Shown one piece after another: positions 1,227 to 61,847 of a stretch of DNA of 64,000 nucleotides. Both the position numbers and the translations under genes were made by a program. Below the pieces are notes generated by a model, which was given only the letters and a program-made list of their open reading frames with translations, was not told where the DNA came from and made no database searches. Position 1 is the first letter of the stretch, and every line of letters starts with the position of its first letter. The DNA is from an uncultured Bacteroidales bacterium (lineage in GTDB: Bacteria > Bacteroidota > Bacteroidia > Bacteroidales > UBA932): positions 1-64,000 of the forward strand of contig CALUTW010000001.1 of the NCBI GenBank assembly GCA_944323805.1, given 5' to 3'.

Positions 1227-3650
1227 TTATTCGTCTTTCTCGTTTCCGTAACCGTAGGAGCCGTAGCCATAACCATATCCGTATCCATAGCCATAATGTC
1301 CGTATGAACCATAGCCGTATCGACCTGACCTTCTGGATACACCGTTGAGCACTACTGCCATCCTATTGTATTTCTTTTCATTGTATAGCTCTTCCACTGT
1401 AGGCAGTGCGCGCTTGTCCATGATGCCGCTTCTCATCACAAAGACAGAGACGTCGGCGGACTGGGCGATTATGGCCGTGTCGGCTACAATGTCTACCGGC
1501 GGACAGTCAAGGAATATGTAGCGGTATTTTGTCTTGAGTGCCTGCAGCATCTCTGTAAAGCGTTCAGACAGCAGGAGCTCTGCCGGGTTAGGAGGAAGTG
1601 TTCCTACAGACAGCAGGTCAAGGTTCTCATCGACATTCTGGATGAGCTTGTCGAGGTTGTCATGTTTGCCTATGAGGTAAGATACTACTCCTTCATGGTT
1701 CTTGTCCATGGATTTACTGAGTGTGGCCTTTCTCAGGTCAAGGTCAACCATCAGCACTTTCTGTCCCTTGAGTGCCATGCTGGCTGCAATATTCATCGTA
1801 ATGAATGTCTTTCCTGCATTTGGATTGAATGAAGTTACCATTATGGACTCGTTTTCGTGGCCTTTGCCGAGCATCATGTCGAGATTGGTCCTGAGTACGC
1901 GGAATGCTTCGTTGATGATGTTGCGGCTGCCTTTCTTGACCACGATACGGCAGTTCTGGTTGTCGAATCTGTGTCTGCCGATGTTTGCCAGGTTCCTCTT
2001 CAGGGTGGATTTCATCTGTGGAATCTCACTGAGGAACGGTATGCTGAGTATCGACAGGTCCTTCTTGTTGGATACCGTATTGTCCATTATCCTGCTGAGG
2101 AAGATGATTCCGAACGGGATGCCTGCTCCGAGTACGAGCGCTACGAGCATTATCATCATCTTGTTCGGGGAGACCGGGGCAGGTGCGCCTGTAGGGGACA
2201 TTATAAGTCGGGTATTCCCTACATTTACAAGACTTGCTATCTCGTTTTCCTCTCTCTTCTGAAGGAGATAGATATAAAGGGATTCCTTTACCTTCTGCTG
2301 TCTTTCTATCGACAGGAGCTCCATCTGTTGTCCCGAGCTTGATGCTATGCGGGCCATAATCTGGTCTTCCTGGCTCTTTATCTTGTCAGCCTGCAGCTGC
2401 AGGGTTGCAAGAAGGTTGTCAATAGAGCGTATGATAGCGCTCCTGATTGATATCATCGCCGCATTCATGTCTGCAATGAGAGGGTTCTTGTCACTGCTGC
2501 TCGAGATAAGCTTGTCTCTCTGGAGTACAATCTGGTTGTATTCCGATATCTGGCTTTCTATGTCGGTGCTTGTCAGTCCGGAATTGGCCGGGATGAGTGC
2601 ATTGGCGTTGGCAGGTTCCGTAAGGTAGTCCCTGATATACTGTGCGATGGAAAGCTGGTTGTGGACTTCAAAGGATTTGGAGGCGTATTCGGATGATTCC
2701 TCGAGATAGGACGCCGACAGCGCCTGCATATCTGTAAGTTTGTTTTCCTCCTTGTATTCCTTGAGGTCCGTCTCGATGCCTCCGAGCTCCTGCTCTATCA
2801 CGACCAGTCTCTCATTGATGAATTCAGTGGTATTCCTGGCCGAACGGTTCTTGTCATGAACCCATTCGTCATTGTATACGTCGATGAGTGTGCTGAGTAT
2901 GTTCTCGGCTCTGTTCGGGTATGTATCTTCAAGCGAGAGCACGACGACCGATGTCTGTTTGCCTGAGACAGTTGCACTGAGGTTGTTGGAATAGGCCTTG
3001 GCTTTTGCTGCGCTGTTTACCCAATTTACAGTGATTTCCTTTTCCCAGTTGGATGCATATAGTGTCGGGAGCAGGGCGATTGTGCCCACCGGGGTTGACA
3101 GTGTGTCTCCGACAGCTCCGGTAATTTCTGTCTTCTTGAGTTTCTCCGGTCCGACAGTGAAGTCCGTAAGTGTAAATGTGCTGTCATCGTCCTTTTTTAT
3201 CTTGAAGGAGAAAGAAGACATTACAAGGGGTTCTATTACGGACAGTTCGACAGGAGAGTTGTTGTAGAGCTCCCGGTCGCGCATGAACTGGTGCTCTACA
3301 TAGCTCGTCTCAAGATTGAGCCGTTTTACAACTTTTGTCATAAGGTCAGGGGATGCGAATGCCTCCACTTCGTTGTTGACGTTGACGCTGGAGCCTTGTC
3401 CTGCAAAGCCGGAAATGTTTGCGATGTCTCGGAGTGTCGCGTCCTGGGCATCTTCATTGATTATCACCTTTGCAGACCGGCTGAATGTCGCTGGGGTCTT
3501 GTACAGGTAGAAGGCTGCAAACACTATGCATATGCCGAGTGACAGCACATACCACCACTTGTATCCCCATATCATGCTCCATATATCCGAAAAGTTGAAG
3601 TCTGACTGCTCTTCCTGCTGGAAATTGTTCCTGTAAGTCTCTTCTGCCAT
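1227..3650 (-). CDS. Wzc-like polysaccharide co-polymerase / BY-kinase
   Basis: Inner-membrane protein of 807 residues that controls chain length and export of exopolysaccharide or capsule through cycles of tyrosine autophosphorylation. The N-terminal Wzz domain has a first membrane segment near residues 33-50. A long periplasmic coiled-coil region follows, then a second membrane segment near 500-525 just after a proline-rich stretch. The C-terminal kinase has Walker A FNPNAGKT (about 605), Walker A' VLMVDLDLRK and Walker B FLDCPP. The protein ends in a tyrosine/glycine tail with about fourteen tyrosines in 31 residues, the expected autophosphorylation cluster. It lies between the Wza-like gene and the epimerase, all on one strand. 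Confidence 0.95.
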   Translation of the reverse strand: MAEETYRNNFQQEEQSDFNFSDIWSMIWGYKWWYVLSLGICIVFAAFYLYKTPATFSRSAKVIINEDAQDATLRDIANISGFAGQGSSVNVNNEVEAFASPDLMTKVVKRLNLETSYVEHQFMRDRELYNNSPVELSVIEPLVMSSFSFKIKKDDDSTFTLTDFTVGPEKLKKTEITGAVGDTLSTPVGTIALLPTLYASNWEKEITVNWVNSAAKAKAYSNNLSATVSGKQTSVVVLSLEDTYPNRAENILSTLIDVYNDEWVHDKNRSARNTTEFINERLVVIEQELGGIETDLKEYKEENKLTDMQALSASYLEESSEYASKSFEVHNQLSIAQYIRDYLTEPANANALIPANSGLTSTDIESQISEYNQIVLQRDKLISSSSDKNPLIADMNAAMISIRSAIIRSIDNLLATLQLQADKIKSQEDQIMARIASSSGQQMELLSIERQQKVKESLYIYLLQKREENEIASLVNVGNTRLIMSPTGAPAPVSPNKMMIMLVALVLGAGIPFGIIFLSRIMDNTVSNKKDLSILSIPFLSEIPQMKSTLKRNLANIGRHRFDNQNCRIVVKKGSRNIINEAFRVLRTNLDMMLGKGHENESIMVTSFNPNAGKTFITMNIAASMALKGQKVLMVDLDLRKATLSKSMDKNHEGVVSYLIGKHDNLDKLIQNVDENLDLLSVGTLPPNPAELLLSERFTEMLQALKTKYRYIFLDCPPVDIVADTAIIAQSADVSVFVMRSGIMDKRALPTVEELYNEKKYNRMAVVLNGVSRRSGRYGYGSYGHYGYGYGYGYGYGSYGYGNEKDE
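1230..1322 (-). repeat. GY-dipeptide repeat encoding the kinase tyrosine tail
   Basis: The last 31 codons of the BY-kinase gene are built from near-repeated 6-base units coding Gly-Tyr, interrupted by Ser, His and Asn. Variation is mostly in the wobble bases. The repeat lies in frame, so loss or gain of units would change the number of phosphorylatable tyrosines without a frameshift. Confidence 0.8.
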
Positions 3651-3690
3651 AATCAGCTGAAATCTTGTATGTTTTTAGATATCTTTCGTG

Positions 3691-4509
3691 TTATTTTATC
3701 AAGGTTGCAAGCAGAGTCGCCACCGATACCAGCAGGGAGCCGGATGAAATCATTATGCTTGTCATCCTGAGTCCCTTGTCGTCAAGCGTTGACTGCCTTG
3801 CCTTGATTTCGCTCGGTTCAACGTATACTATGTCATTCTGCAGGAGGTTGTATGCAGGCGACTTGAACATGTCTACAGAGCAGAGGTCGATATTGTAGAA
3901 TACTCTTTCCCCATCCATTTCCCTGATGACAGTGACGTTATTCCTCTTGCCGAAGATTGTCAGGTCTCCGGCAAGGCTCAAGGCCTGGAGTACTGTTACC
4001 TTGTCTCCTTCAATGGTATATGTCCCTGGTTTATTGACCTCGCCAAGGACAGACACCTTGAAATTCATGAACTCGACGGTCACTACGGCATCGTTGAGAT
4101 ATCCTTCTTCAAGCAGGGTGTTTCTGATGGTCTCTGAAAGCTCCCATCTGGTCATTCCTGCCACCTGCATCCTGCCTAATACAGGGAAGTCGATGAAGCC
4201 GTCATTGTCGACAACATAGCCCAAAAGTCTCTGCTGGGCTGTACTTGTGACTATTTCAGACCCGGCCTGATAGCTGACAACCGGAAGATTGAACATCGTT
4301 GCAAGTTCCGGATTGCGGCAGGATACGACAATCGATATCATGTCCTTTGGCTGGATGACAATGCCGCCGTGCTTGTCTATCTGTTCTGGATTGTCTATGG
4401 CCTTGTCCTGGAAATATGCAATGTCCTTGACTGTTGCACAAGAGGCAAGCATGACGATAGCCATAGTACAGATTACGGCCGTCCTGATTCTTTCTATGGT
4501 TTTGTCCAT
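3691..4509 (-). CDS. Wza-like polysaccharide export lipoprotein
   Basis: Outer-membrane polysaccharide export protein of 272 residues. The start chosen gives a signal peptide ending in the lipobox LASC (cysteine about residue 25), so it should be a lipoprotein. The Poly_export domain follows, and then an SLBB domain containing a VLGEVNKPGTY motif. A hydrophobic segment close to the C-terminus could be a membrane anchor; this feature is common in Bacteroidota homologues, which lack the long barrel-forming end of E. coli Wza. The gene is followed by the Wzc-like kinase 40 bases later, forming the periplasm-spanning export pair. It is the first gene of the operon and has a good promoter and a leader of about 170 bases. 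Confidence 0.92.
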   Translation of the reverse strand: MDKTIERIRTAVICTMAIVMLASCATVKDIAYFQDKAIDNPEQIDKHGGIVIQPKDMISIVVSCRNPELATMFNLPVVSYQAGSEIVTSTAQQRLLGYVVDNDGFIDFPVLGRMQVAGMTRWELSETIRNTLLEEGYLNDAVVTVEFMNFKVSVLGEVNKPGTYTIEGDKVTVLQALSLAGDLTIFGKRNNVTVIREMDGERVFYNIDLCSVDMFKSPAYNLLQNDIVYVEPSEIKARQSTLDDKGLRMTSIMISSGSLLVSVATLLATLIK

Positions 4510-57259: not shown

Positions 57260-58126
57260 ATGAACAGAAGACACCTTTTTATTTCTTTCTTTGCCGCAAT
57301 ATGCCTGTATCCTCAGGCTGAAGCGCAGCGTATCAAGGGAAGTGATACTTTATTGCCACTTACACAGGAACTTGCAGAAGAGTATCTCGACAGTCATCCG
57401 GATGAGGAAATCATTGTGACAGGTGGCGGCTCCGGTGTCGGTATTGCCGCCCTTCCTGAAAACACCACGGATATAGCGATGGCTTCGCGCCGCATCAGGT
57501 TCAGCGAAAAGATGAAGTTCGCAGATCTCGGGCTTGATGTACGGGAAGTCATTGTGGCATATGATGCCCTTGCCGTGGTGGTAAATCCGTCCAACCCGGT
57601 GGACAGCCTGACAAGGGAACAGCTCGAAGCCATATTCAGGGGAAAGGTCACGAACTGGAAGGAAGTCGGAGGCGATGACTGCAGGATTGTCGTGTATTCC
57701 AGGGAGACATCATCCGGTACATATGAATTTTTCAAGGAGAGTGTACTGGAGAACAAGAATTACATGAGCAGTATACTTTCAATGCCCGCCACCGGTGCGA
57801 TAATCCAGTCTGTAAGGCAGACAAGGGGAGCAATCGGGTATATCGGTCTGGCATATCTCAACAGGTATGTCAAGCCGCTGGCAGTCTCGTATGACGGTGG
57901 CAGTCATTATGCATATCCGTCTGTCGGGACAGCGGCATCAGGGCAGTATCCGATTGTCCGTCCGCTCTATTATTATTACGATCCGAGGAAAGAGGCGGAA
58001 GTATCCTCTTTTATCTCATTCGCATTATCCCCGGAAGGTCAGGAGTCGGTGCTTGAGCAGGGATTTATCCCGGTCAGGATGGAAAGTCCCGCCGAAGCCC
58101 GGCAGATGGACGCCTCTGAGGAATGA
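57260..58126 (+). CDS. pstS: Phosphate-binding protein PstS
   Basis: Periplasmic phosphate receptor of 288 residues with a signal peptide cut after AEA (residue 22); there is no lipobox. Phosphate-binding loops are GSDT (27-30), GGGSGVGIAAL and RETSSGTYEFF (148-158). The hinge and second lobe contain the VNPSNPV, LEAIFRGKVTNWKEVG and ATGAIIQSV segments. First gene of pstSCAB-phoU. Confidence 0.95.
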   Translation: MNRRHLFISFFAAICLYPQAEAQRIKGSDTLLPLTQELAEEYLDSHPDEEIIVTGGGSGVGIAALPENTTDIAMASRRIRFSEKMKFADLGLDVREVIVAYDALAVVVNPSNPVDSLTREQLEAIFRGKVTNWKEVGGDDCRIVVYSRETSSGTYEFFKESVLENKNYMSSILSMPATGAIIQSVRQTRGAIGYIGLAYLNRYVKPLAVSYDGGSHYAYPSVGTAASGQYPIVRPLYYYYDPRKEAEVSSFISFALSPEGQESVLEQGFIPVRMESPAEARQMDASEE

Positions 58127-58163
58127 CATCTGCATAATTGCATAAGAATCTGACATACAGTAT

Positions 58164-59360
58164 ATGAAACGTGTTTTGGAACATGCGGTCAGGTGGCTGC
58201 TCACGGCAAGCGGATTTGTGACGAGTGCCGTCATACTCCTGATAATAGGCTTCCTGTTTACTGAAGGTGCAGGGCTTTTCCGCGAGCATGTCATCGAAGA
58301 AGGCTATGTACTTGCCCTGAACAGGGATAATCCGGTAAAGGAAATGTCTGCAGCCGAGATAAAGGCTGTCTTTGACGAGGATATTGTCAGCTGGAAAGAC
58401 CTGGGATGGAAGGATATACCCGTAGAGACATTCCGCCTTGAGGACATCGGCAGGTATTTTACGGAAGCGGAACTCGGCCCGCAATATGAGCATGCCGGGT
58501 CGGCGATTGCCGGCCTTGTTTCAAGCCATCCTGGAATGATTGCATTTGTGCCCGAATCGATGATTCCGCAGGAAGCAGGACTCAACTTCATTGAAGACAG
58601 TACAATTTCGTTTTCAGAAGTAATTGCAGGCCCGGAATGGTTCCCTACGGCAACTCCTGCCCCTCTTTTTGGAATGTGGCCCTTGCTTGCGGGTACGCTC
58701 TGGGTAAGCCTGTTCGCAATATTGATAGCATTGCCTTTCGGCATCAGCATAGCAGTGTATATGGCGGAAGTGGCATCGGAGAAGGTGCGGAATTTCCTCA
58801 AGCCTGTAATTGAGCTGCTTAACGGCATCCCTTCTGTCGTCTACGGCTTTTTCGGCCTTATTGTTATAGTCCCGATGCTTCAGAGGGTGTTCGGACTGCC
58901 GGTAGGCGAAAGCGGTCTTGCCGGAAGCCTTGTCCTGGCAATCATGGCTCTTCCTACCATTGTCACAGTAGCTGAAGATGCGATGCGCAACTGCCCGAGG
59001 TCTTTAAGGGAGGCAAGTCTGGCACTCGGTGCAACAAAATGGCAGACCATATCAAAAGTGGTCATACCATCATCGATGTCCGGGATTGCATCGGGTGTCG
59101 TGCTCGGCATCGGCAGGGCAGTCGGCGAGACGATGGCGGTCCTGATGGTAACAGGTAATGCGGCAGTGGTCCCGACGACCATCCTGGAGCCGTTGCGTAC
59201 AATCCCGGCGACCATAGCGGCAGAACTTGGCGAGGCTCCTGCAGGAGGAGCGCATTATCAGTCGCTTTTCCTTCTCGGGGTTATCCTGTTCTTCATTACA
59301 TTCTTCATCAACCTTTGCGTAGAGTTCATATCTTCACGCGGCAAGGTAAGAAACAGTTGA
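58164..59360 (+). CDS. pstC: Phosphate ABC transporter permease PstC, with periplasmic insert
   Basis: Permease of 398 residues. The C-terminal half is standard PstC, with six helices and the EAA-type loop LREASLALGATKWQTISKVVIP. Between the first helix (about 11-33) and the second (about 170) lies an insert of about 130 residues that E. coli PstC largely lacks. Part of this insert (52-88 and 108-130) reads like the second lobe of PstS from the same operon, but without the RETSSGT phosphate loop. It ends 4 bases before pstA. Confidence 0.93.
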   Translation: MKRVLEHAVRWLLTASGFVTSAVILLIIGFLFTEGAGLFREHVIEEGYVLALNRDNPVKEMSAAEIKAVFDEDIVSWKDLGWKDIPVETFRLEDIGRYFTEAELGPQYEHAGSAIAGLVSSHPGMIAFVPESMIPQEAGLNFIEDSTISFSEVIAGPEWFPTATPAPLFGMWPLLAGTLWVSLFAILIALPFGISIAVYMAEVASEKVRNFLKPVIELLNGIPSVVYGFFGLIVIVPMLQRVFGLPVGESGLAGSLVLAIMALPTIVTVAEDAMRNCPRSLREASLALGATKWQTISKVVIPSSMSGIASGVVLGIGRAVGETMAVLMVTGNAAVVPTTILEPLRTIPATIAAELGEAPAGGAHYQSLFLLGVILFFITFFINLCVEFISSRGKVRNS

Positions 59361-59364
59361 CGAC

Positions 59365-60279
59365 ATGGACAGAAATTCAACAGGGGTAAAGGCCGGGTCC
59401 CCGTCATATCCGTCAGGATACAGCAGACGCAAAAGACGCTCGCAGAATGCAGCCTTTGCGGTCTTCAGGATATTGAGCATTTTTATAGCGGCCGTCCTTT
59501 TTGCCATACTCGGCTTCATAATATGGAAAGGGGCAGGTGTAATCAGCTGGGATTTCCTTACGCAGGCGCCGTCCGACGGCATGACTTCCGGGGGTATCTT
59601 CCCTGCGATAGCCGGCACGCTCCTCCTTATGCTCGGAAGCGCCATTGTGGCTTTCCCGATAGGCATAATGAGCGGAGTCTACATGAACGAATATGCCTCG
59701 AAAGGCTGGGTGGTCAGCTTTATCCGTCTCATGACCAACAATCTGAGCGGTGTGCCGTCAATCGTTTTCGGACTGTTCGGCATGGCTCTCTTTGTGAAAT
59801 ATCTCGGTTTCGGGGACAGTATAATAGCCGGTTCATTTACTCTGGGGCTTCTTTCCCTGCCTCTGGTTATCAGGACAACAGAGGAGGCATTGAAGGATAT
59901 CCCGGCCGGAATCCGTGAAGGCAGCCTGGCTCTCGGAGCCACAAAGCTCCAGACAATATGGAAGGTCGTCCTTCCTATGGGCATGCCGAGGATCATTACC
60001 GGGCTCATACTTTCACTCGGAAGGGTGTCTGGGGAGACTGCGCCGATACTTTTTACCTGTGCGGCATATTTCTTCCCTCAGTTGCCGTCTTCCGTTTTCG
60101 ACCAGTGCATGGCATTGCCTTATCACCTGTATGTGATTTCAACCAGCGGGACCGACCTGGAGGCACAGCAGCCTATCGCATACGGTACTGCCCTGGTGCT
60201 GATAGTAATAGTGCTTGCAATAAATCTCTTGGCCGGATTCTTCAGGAGCCTGTTCGAGAAAAGGCTGAAGATGAAATAA
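59365..60279 (+). CDS. pstA: Phosphate ABC transporter permease PstA
   Basis: Permease of 304 residues with a basic N-terminus and six membrane segments. Family marks are MSGVYMNEYA, NNLSGVPSIVFGLFG and the EAA loop IREGSLALGATKLQTIWKVVLP that docks on PstB. Normal length, unlike its PstC partner. Confidence 0.95.
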   Translation: MDRNSTGVKAGSPSYPSGYSRRKRRSQNAAFAVFRILSIFIAAVLFAILGFIIWKGAGVISWDFLTQAPSDGMTSGGIFPAIAGTLLLMLGSAIVAFPIGIMSGVYMNEYASKGWVVSFIRLMTNNLSGVPSIVFGLFGMALFVKYLGFGDSIIAGSFTLGLLSLPLVIRTTEEALKDIPAGIREGSLALGATKLQTIWKVVLPMGMPRIITGLILSLGRVSGETAPILFTCAAYFFPQLPSSVFDQCMALPYHLYVISTSGTDLEAQQPIAYGTALVLIVIVLAINLLAGFFRSLFEKRLKMK

Positions 60280-60328
60280 GCTCCCGCCTATTGACTGATA
60301 AAACGATAATGATAAAAAAGTTTATATA

Positions 60329-61081
60329 ATGGAAAAGATAGAAGCCAGGGACGTGAATTTCTATTACGGGAACTTCCATGCCCTTAAAGGCATATCGATG
60401 GATATCCCGAGGAATAATGTGGTCGCCTTCATAGGCCCGTCAGGATGCGGCAAGTCCACGTTCCTGAGACTGTTCAACAGGATGAACGACCTTATCCCTG
60501 AGGCACGCCTTGAAGGCAGCATAATGATAGACGGGCAGGACATATACGGCCCGGACGTCCAGGTCGATGAGCTGCGTAAGAATGTGGGGATGGTCTTCCA
60601 GCGTCCGAACCCGTTTCCGAAGAGTATCTTCGACAATATCGCATATGGATTGAGAGTTAACGGGATCAAGGACAGGGAATATATCCGGCACCGTGTGGAG
60701 GAATCCCTCAGAGGGGCCGCACTATGGGATGAGGTAAAGGACAAGCTCAATGCTTCGGCTTATGCTCTGTCCGGAGGCCAGCAGCAGCGTCTGTGCATTG
60801 CACGGGCCATGGCCGTATCCCCGTCTGTCCTCCTTATGGATGAGCCGGCATCTGCCCTTGACCCGATTTCCACCGCCAAGGTGGAGGAACTTATCTGCGA
60901 GCTCAGAAAAGAGGTCACTATTGTCATTGTGACGCATAATATGCAGCAGGCTTCACGTGTCAGCGACAAGACAGCATTCTTCTATATGGGGGAAATGGTT
61001 GAATATGACGATACAAAGGTTATCTTTACAAATCCCCGCAAAGAGGCTACGCAGAATTATATTACCGGACGGTTCGGATAG
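60329..61081 (+). CDS. pstB: Phosphate ABC transporter ATPase PstB
   Basis: ATPase of 250 residues. Walker [11 protein letters not shown]-loop [13 protein letters not shown], signature [16 protein letters not shown] and Walker [13 protein letters not shown] are complete. The PstB hallmark N-terminus ([14 protein letters not shown]) and the C-terminal [16 protein letters not shown] are both present. Confidence 0.97.
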
Positions 61082-61136
61082 CGGGCTCCGGCATGCAACG
61101 GTATCGCATTTGTCAAACTGAATTAAACTATATCCG

Positions 61137-61847
61137 ATGGTAAAATTTATAGAATCTGAACTGATGCAGCTCCGCAGCGAGGTCTACCAGATGTGGACAC
61201 TGGTCTACAACCAGATGGACCAGGCGCGTCTTGCCGTACTGGGGCTCGACAAGGACATCGCTCAACAGGTAATTGTCCGTGAACGCAGGGTTGATGCATA
61301 TGAGCTCAAGATAGACAGTGATGTGGAAGACTTCATTGCCTTGTACACCCCGGTGGCTGTGGACCTCCGTTTTGTCCTGGCAATGCTTAAGATAAACAAT
61401 GACCTCGAACGCATCGGGGACTATGCTGACGGGATTGCCAGGTTTGTAAGGGATTCCGAAGGCAGCGTGCTGGACAGAAGCCTTGTTGAAAGGCTTCAGC
61501 TCAACGAGATGTTCGAGGGCGTGCTGGATATGATGCGGGATCTTCAGCAGTCGCTGATTGACGAGAATCCGGTCAAGGCCACTTCTGTAATGGACAAGGA
61601 TGATACCCTGGACAGGATAAAGGCCGCTTCAACCGGGATCCTTGTGGATTATGCGTCGTCCCATACGGATGCAATCGCTCTCTGCATGGGGCTTGCCGGG
61701 GTATTCCGCAAGCTTGAACGTACGGGAGACCATCTGACAAATATCGCGGAAGAGATAGTGTTCTTCATAGATGCGAAGGTGCTCAAGCATACTTCCGCGG
61801 ATACGGGCCGGCAGTCTTCTGCAGACGGCCATGTCACCGGGAACTGA
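61137..61847 (+). CDS. phoU: Phosphate signalling protein PhoU
   Basis: Two-repeat helical bundle of 236 residues. Metal-binding-type acidic motifs appear in both halves: LERIGDYADGIARF and LERTGDHLTNIAEE. PhoU links the Pst transporter to the phosphate two-component kinase and shuts the Pho response in phosphate excess. The kinase and PhoB-type regulator genes are not in the window. Confidence 0.95.
   Translation: MVKFIESELMQLRSEVYQMWTLVYNQMDQARLAVLGLDKDIAQQVIVRERRVDAYELKIDSDVEDFIALYTPVAVDLRFVLAMLKINNDLERIGDYADGIARFVRDSEGSVLDRSLVERLQLNEMFEGVLDMMRDLQQSLIDENPVKATSVMDKDDTLDRIKAASTGILVDYASSHTDAIALCMGLAGVFRKLERTGDHLTNIAEEIVFFIDAKVLKHTSADTGRQSSADGHVTGN

Follow-up and report, generated by a model that had tools for sequence, protein, structure and literature searches.

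In standard PstC permeases of phosphate ABC importers, a loop of ~20 residues lies between the first two transmembrane helices (TM1 and TM2). In the PstC encoded within the 64,000-nucleotide stretch of uncultured Bacteroidales DNA analysed here (the window), an extra domain of ~100 residues occupies this position, raising the question of what this domain is, how it arose and what it may contribute to the importer. The corresponding gene is part of a pstSCAB-phoU operon, being located in the cluster pstS-pstC-pstA-pstB-phoU on the + strand (positions 57260-61847 of the window; Table 1). The deduced protein scored above the TIGR02138 cut-off of 196.45 bits, with a profile match that starts only at residue 142. 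Escherichia coli PstC (PDB 9k3s_B, 9k3x_B and 9k3y_B) represented the top structural and sequence match to the membrane part of the window PstC, but consists of 319 aa and has a TM1-TM2 loop without the extra domain.

Table 1. Features of the pst locus (window coordinates, 5' to 3') and the evidence on which each is based
Feature	Position	Strand	Evidence
pstS, complete two-lobe phosphate-binding protein, 288 aa, signal peptide	57260..58126	+	TIGR02136 241 bits; PF12849 E=4.8e-43
PstS lobe 2, aa 96-206, homologue of the PstC insert	57545..57877	+	hhalign
PstS phosphate loop SRETSSGT, aa 147-154, absent from PstC	57698..57721	+	sequence alignment
pstC, phosphate ABC importer permease bearing the lobe, 398 aa	58164..59360	+	TIGR02138 283.9 bits; PF00528 E=7.8e-22
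PstC TM1 and periplasmic end GAGLF, aa about 12-39	58197..58280	+	helix 2-40 in AlphaFold2 model; GLF conserved
Inserted PstS lobe-2 domain, aa about 44-140	58293..58583	+	PF12849 positions 83-184; hhalign P=2e-15; PDB profile matches; Foldseek
Insert block 1, LNRDNPV...IKAVFDEDIVSWKDLG, aa 52-81, equivalent to PstS 108-137	58317..58406	+	hhalign; W77 invariant 52/52
Insert-specific segment FRLEDIGRYFTEAELGPQYE, aa 90-109, replacing the SRETSSGT phosphate loop together with the following helix	58431..58490	+	SSGT in 0/52 non-redundant inserts; G105 98%
Insert block 2, HAGSAIAGLVSSHPGMIAFV, aa 110-129, equivalent to PstS 177-196	58491..58550	+	hhalign
PstC segment EWFPTATPAPLFG, aa 158-170, ordinary pre-TM2 stretch where the lobe rejoins the permease	58635..58673	+	aligns with [ED]W.P of standard PstCs
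pstA, 304 aa, without insert	59365..60279	+	PF00528
pstB, ATPase	60329..61081	+	PF00005 E=2.2e-31
phoU	61137..61847	+	PF01895 E=1.2e-32

Relationship of the PstC insert to PstS

The insert is homologous to lobe 2, the central and contiguous lobe of type II binding proteins, and this homology extends beyond two short motifs. The window PstC matched positions 83-184 of the Pfam PBP_like_2 family (E=3.1e-4 for the whole protein and 3.5e-5 for the insert alone). Its score of 21 bits compares with a curated PF12849 cut-off of 27 bits, which many relatives pass (e.g. 44.5 bits in genome G453), and the family was matched by all 21 aligned insert relatives (best E=1.6e-11). Profile-profile comparison of the insert with the neighbouring PstS proteins (hhalign) revealed a clear match (P=2.1e-15, 24% identity over 88 columns), and when the insert-alignment profile was compared with all PDB sequences, the strongest matches were phosphate-binding proteins (4q8r, 8e-14; 4gd5, 1e-13; 4exl, 8e-13; and others). 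Modelled with AlphaFold2, the insert showed strands and helices in lobe-2 order (core pLDDT about 87-94), and the first 34 Foldseek matches obtained with this model (E<=0.001, probability 1.00) were all PstS or phosphate-binding proteins. Chance resemblance or analogy is ruled out by these profile-profile, PDB profile and fold comparisons, while a sequencing or fusion artefact is ruled out by the presence of 84 insert-type PstC frames among the loci. The proposal of the initial annotation that the permease contains a degenerate binding-protein lobe was thus borne out by both sequence profile and predicted fold, with neither an unrelated fold nor a failure to match the PBP-like family being observed.

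Within the insert, LNRDNPV (L52-V58), SAAEIKAVFDEDIVSWKDLG (S62-G81) and the block H110-V129 were located, with counterparts in PstS at 108-114 (VNPSNPV), 118-137 and 177-196, respectively. The second block was found in both proteins exactly where the initial annotation had placed it. The same annotation had described residues 52-88 of PstC as parallel to PstS in order and spacing; the order was confirmed, with VNPSNPV beginning one residue later than originally given. Owing to a reduced phosphate-loop region, the two blocks lie ~11 residues closer together in PstC than in PstS. While the insert has the central-lobe profile and predicted fold in common with PstS (PF12849, TIGR02136), it differs from PstS in being a single lobe, without a phosphate loop and embedded in a permease. 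It covers only PF12849 positions 83-184 of 267 and, as lobe 1 is absent, does not exhibit a two-lobe hinge architecture. It does represent a folded domain (core pLDDT about 90), placed on the periplasmic side of the permease in the loop that runs from TM1 to the EWFPT segment preceding TM2.

Loss of the phosphate loop and sequence conservation

The phosphate loop ([ST]-x-[SG]-S-G-T with a preceding Arg) was absent from all 52 non-redundant inserts, so that its absence, originally reported for the window PstC, holds for all of these relatives. The segment replacing it is shorter and conserved among inserts (FR[LF]xDxxxYY[TS]EEELGxx[YF]E), and does not represent a PstS motif. Furthermore, the position aligned with the phosphate-binding Arg (L92 in the window PstC) is mostly Leu or Phe. 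Since the loop is missing and this position is mostly Leu or Phe, the lobe is presumably unable to bind phosphate in the manner known for PstS. Across the same 52 inserts, W77 was invariant and N56, F70, G82 and G105 were conserved in at least 96%. The window PstC itself carries a Trp (W82, 58407-58409) where 96% of non-redundant inserts have Gly (in the GG following the WKxx motif).

The insert is under purifying selection. Between close relatives, omega was about 0.10 for the insert, compared with 0.02 for the membrane part; as dS was saturated, these values demonstrate purifying selection without quantifying it exactly. Within the protein, the insert diverges most rapidly, with a mean identity of 52%, compared with 80% for the membrane part (i.e. 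the rest of PstC) and 81% for PstS lobe 2. Mirror-tree analysis revealed weak co-divergence of insert and PstS once the membrane part was taken into account (partial r of 0.21-0.24).

Distribution, origin and coexistence with PstS

Insert-type PstCs, defined as long frames of about 395-430 aa in which the profile match starts at position 28 or later, were identified in 43 of the 247 genomes sampled from the window's order (including G405, a contig-edge fragment). A PstC above the cut-off was present in 135 of these 247 genomes, the remaining PstCs being of standard length. In a phylum-wide sample of 395 genomes, seven strong insert matches (>150 bits) were obtained, all within the window's class, and no match above 51 bits was found in 100 genomes from the phylum of an Acidimicrobiia locus (L057). 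The named carriers are Bacteroides finegoldii, Phocaeicola massiliensis and Parabacteroides distasonis. Close to the window's genome, the Pst system seems to have been patchily lost, since no PstC match was found in G402 (same genus) or in G518 and G615 (same family). In a Muribaculaceae metagenome-assembled genome (L045, about 2500-3700), pstC is split into two frames of 159 and 238 residues, representing a frameshift or an assembly error. Two PLSDB records filed as Bacteroides and Parabacteroides plasmids (NZ_OY725936 and NZ_OY725757; L120 and L121) contain pst together with tRNA ligase or tRNA-modification genes and look chromosomal.

In a tree of the membrane part, from which the insert was left out, 51 insert-type rows were located on one side of a single branch (support 95/86), with none outside. 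The lobes themselves formed one clade apart from all PstS proteins (100/99), while the PstS proteins from insert-bearing loci also formed one clade (96/83). The window record and a copy of the same frame (L001, L002 and L059) were left out of the trees, and a truncated divergent insert (L102) was omitted from both. Because insert-type PstCs form one clade on the membrane-part tree, the simplest reading of these sequences is one ancient capture followed by vertical inheritance. A recent duplication of the neighbouring pstS was not supported, as the lobes constitute a separate, long-branched clade that does not fall within the local PstS clade.

A full-length PstS was encoded by 45 of 46 insert-bearing genomes, the exception being a genome of 68% completeness, and this coexistence rules out the lobe as a replacement of PstS. 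Insert-type PstCs co-occur with one PstS clade. The position of pstS is variable, being upstream on the same strand, head-to-head (B. finegoldii) or elsewhere, and in P. distasonis no pstS adjoins pstC. In B. fragilis, PhoB mediates the induction of the pstCAB-phoU operon at low phosphate, and pstS is oriented head-to-head to this operon (PMC3547664). Many genomes harbour two Pst systems (e.g. G521, G462, G457 and G453): the PstS accompanying the insert-type PstC has about 275-310 residues, and that of the standard PstC about 320-360. In the membrane-part tree, the insert type is widely separated from the standard PstCs that were sampled from the order. An association of the insert with soluble, rather than lipoprotein, PstS was considered and dropped: the partners are mostly soluble, but deep members are lipoproteins (L061, L063-L065 and L093).

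Possible role of the lobe in the importer

By analogy with the P2 domain of MalF, the lobe may act as a docking or gating domain for PstS, as the initial annotation had suggested; this is the reading that we favour and to which we assign a probability of about 0.5. As shown by the homology, its position and the single clade, a PstS-type lobe 2 was captured by an ancestral Bacteroidia PstC in its TM1-TM2 periplasmic loop; the lobe has lost the phosphate-binding loop, and its remainder is kept under the purifying selection described above. The lobe would be attached to the membrane through its hinge side and located adjacent to the site at which PstS docks. Since both ends of lobe 2 emerge on the hinge side and are membrane-anchored here, the lobe would be expected to be upright on the periplasmic surface of PstC, its tip pointing into the periplasm; this orientation was not read from the full-length AlphaFold2 model, as the confidence of the latter is only moderate (pTM 0.55). 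In this position, the lobe could keep PstS in place or in the right orientation on PstC/PstA and might link docking with opening of the gate, as MalF P2 does for maltose-binding protein. The missing site and the coexisting complete PstS suggest that the lobe carries no phosphate itself and leaves PstS in place. Counting against a docking role, the insert evolves faster than either the rest of PstC or PstS lobe 2, whereas a tight conserved interface would predict otherwise, and its co-divergence with PstS beyond shared ancestry is weak.

In the type I maltose importer MalFGK2, a loop of the permease likewise carries a folded periplasmic domain, MalF P2. This domain is located between other helices, however, and the different loop also counts against the comparison. 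To our knowledge, MalF P2 is not derived from a binding-protein lobe. In the literature it touches its binding protein: the title of Daus 2009 (cited in PMC3328499) reports interaction of the periplasmic domain with MalE throughout the cycle, and titles cited in PMC8134467 and PMC3328499 refer to contact with maltose-binding protein through the cycle and to communication of substrate availability. In GlnPQ and OpuA, a binding-protein domain is covalently joined to the permease, as is the PstC lobe. Their domains are, however, complete, two-lobed, ligand-binding and terminal, and make a free binding protein unnecessary, whereas PstC has half a domain within a loop alongside a free PstS. The PstC systems are thus not importers with fused substrate-binding domains.

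Several other roles were considered. As the lobe is homologous to one that itself docks on the permease, and is followed by a long linker (aa 131-157), it might serve as a plug or decoy, filling the docking site or periplasmic entrance in the absence of loaded PstS, thereby limiting futile ATP use or leak, until displaced by PstS. This seems unlikely, since the membrane-anchored, hinge-side ends would place the lobe upside down compared with a docked PstS lobe, and the lobe-2 surface is strongly diverged (24% identity). Its rapid evolution, together with the unrelated extensions borne by the same loop in other lineages, would also fit an inherited structural filler whose sole remaining function is to stabilise the periplasmic face, without a specific contribution to transport; we regard this as doubtful, given that the lobe is kept in every member of a broad clade with an omega of about 0.1, and that W77, G105, N56 and F70 are invariant or nearly so.

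The presence of phoU in the operon and the PhoB regulation of pstCAB-phoU in B. fragilis (PMC3547664) would be in line with a phosphate-status sensor or signalling module, with the lobe informing the PhoR/PhoU pathway of PstS occupancy. A sensor partner was not identified, and Pst/PhoU signalling is established to function in E. coli with an insert-free PstC (9k3s_B, 319 aa), rendering such a role quite improbable. A permease with half of its own receptor inside, in which the captured lobe is a competitor or partner of those of free PstS (by homotypic contact or lobe exchange) and, as a ligand-blind copy, sets docking and gating, is an equally long shot. Retained binding of an anion or another small ligand, either by the lobe on its own or in a cleft formed jointly with a PstS lobe, is very improbable: an Arg (R91) and acidic positions are conserved in the replaced loop, but no insert has the SGT loop, most have a hydrophobic residue at the Arg-equivalent position (L92), and a single lobe provides only half of the cleft.

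The TM1-TM2 loop of PstC appears able to accommodate extensions that vary from lineage to lineage. In other lineages within the phylum, PstCs (L070, L072-L074, L076, L079, L082 and L084) were observed to carry a low-complexity loop of 90-130 residues at this position, most with repeated [PE]xxYNP[DE] motifs and none with a lobe. A planctomycete PstC from Thermogutta (L058:719-3664, a 983-residue open frame) also contains an extra domain, but this is N-terminal to the membrane core, with weak WD40/beta-propeller matches and no PstS-like lobe; a second family match is present in a 661-residue frame downstream.

A search of the open-access literature on PstC periplasmic domains and on PstC in Bacteroides returned no description of the lobe. 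The architecture may already sit unremarked in databases, as Pfam detects the domain above its cut-off in some relatives. Although few ABC importers have been studied as much as those for phosphate, the lobe-bearing form of the Bacteroidia, present in gut species such as B. finegoldii and P. distasonis, is annotated only as PstC. Being a single domain that can be deleted, swapped or mutated, the lobe would offer a handle on the coupling of receptor docking to gate opening, and its capture shows that binding-protein lobes can be reused as permease domains.
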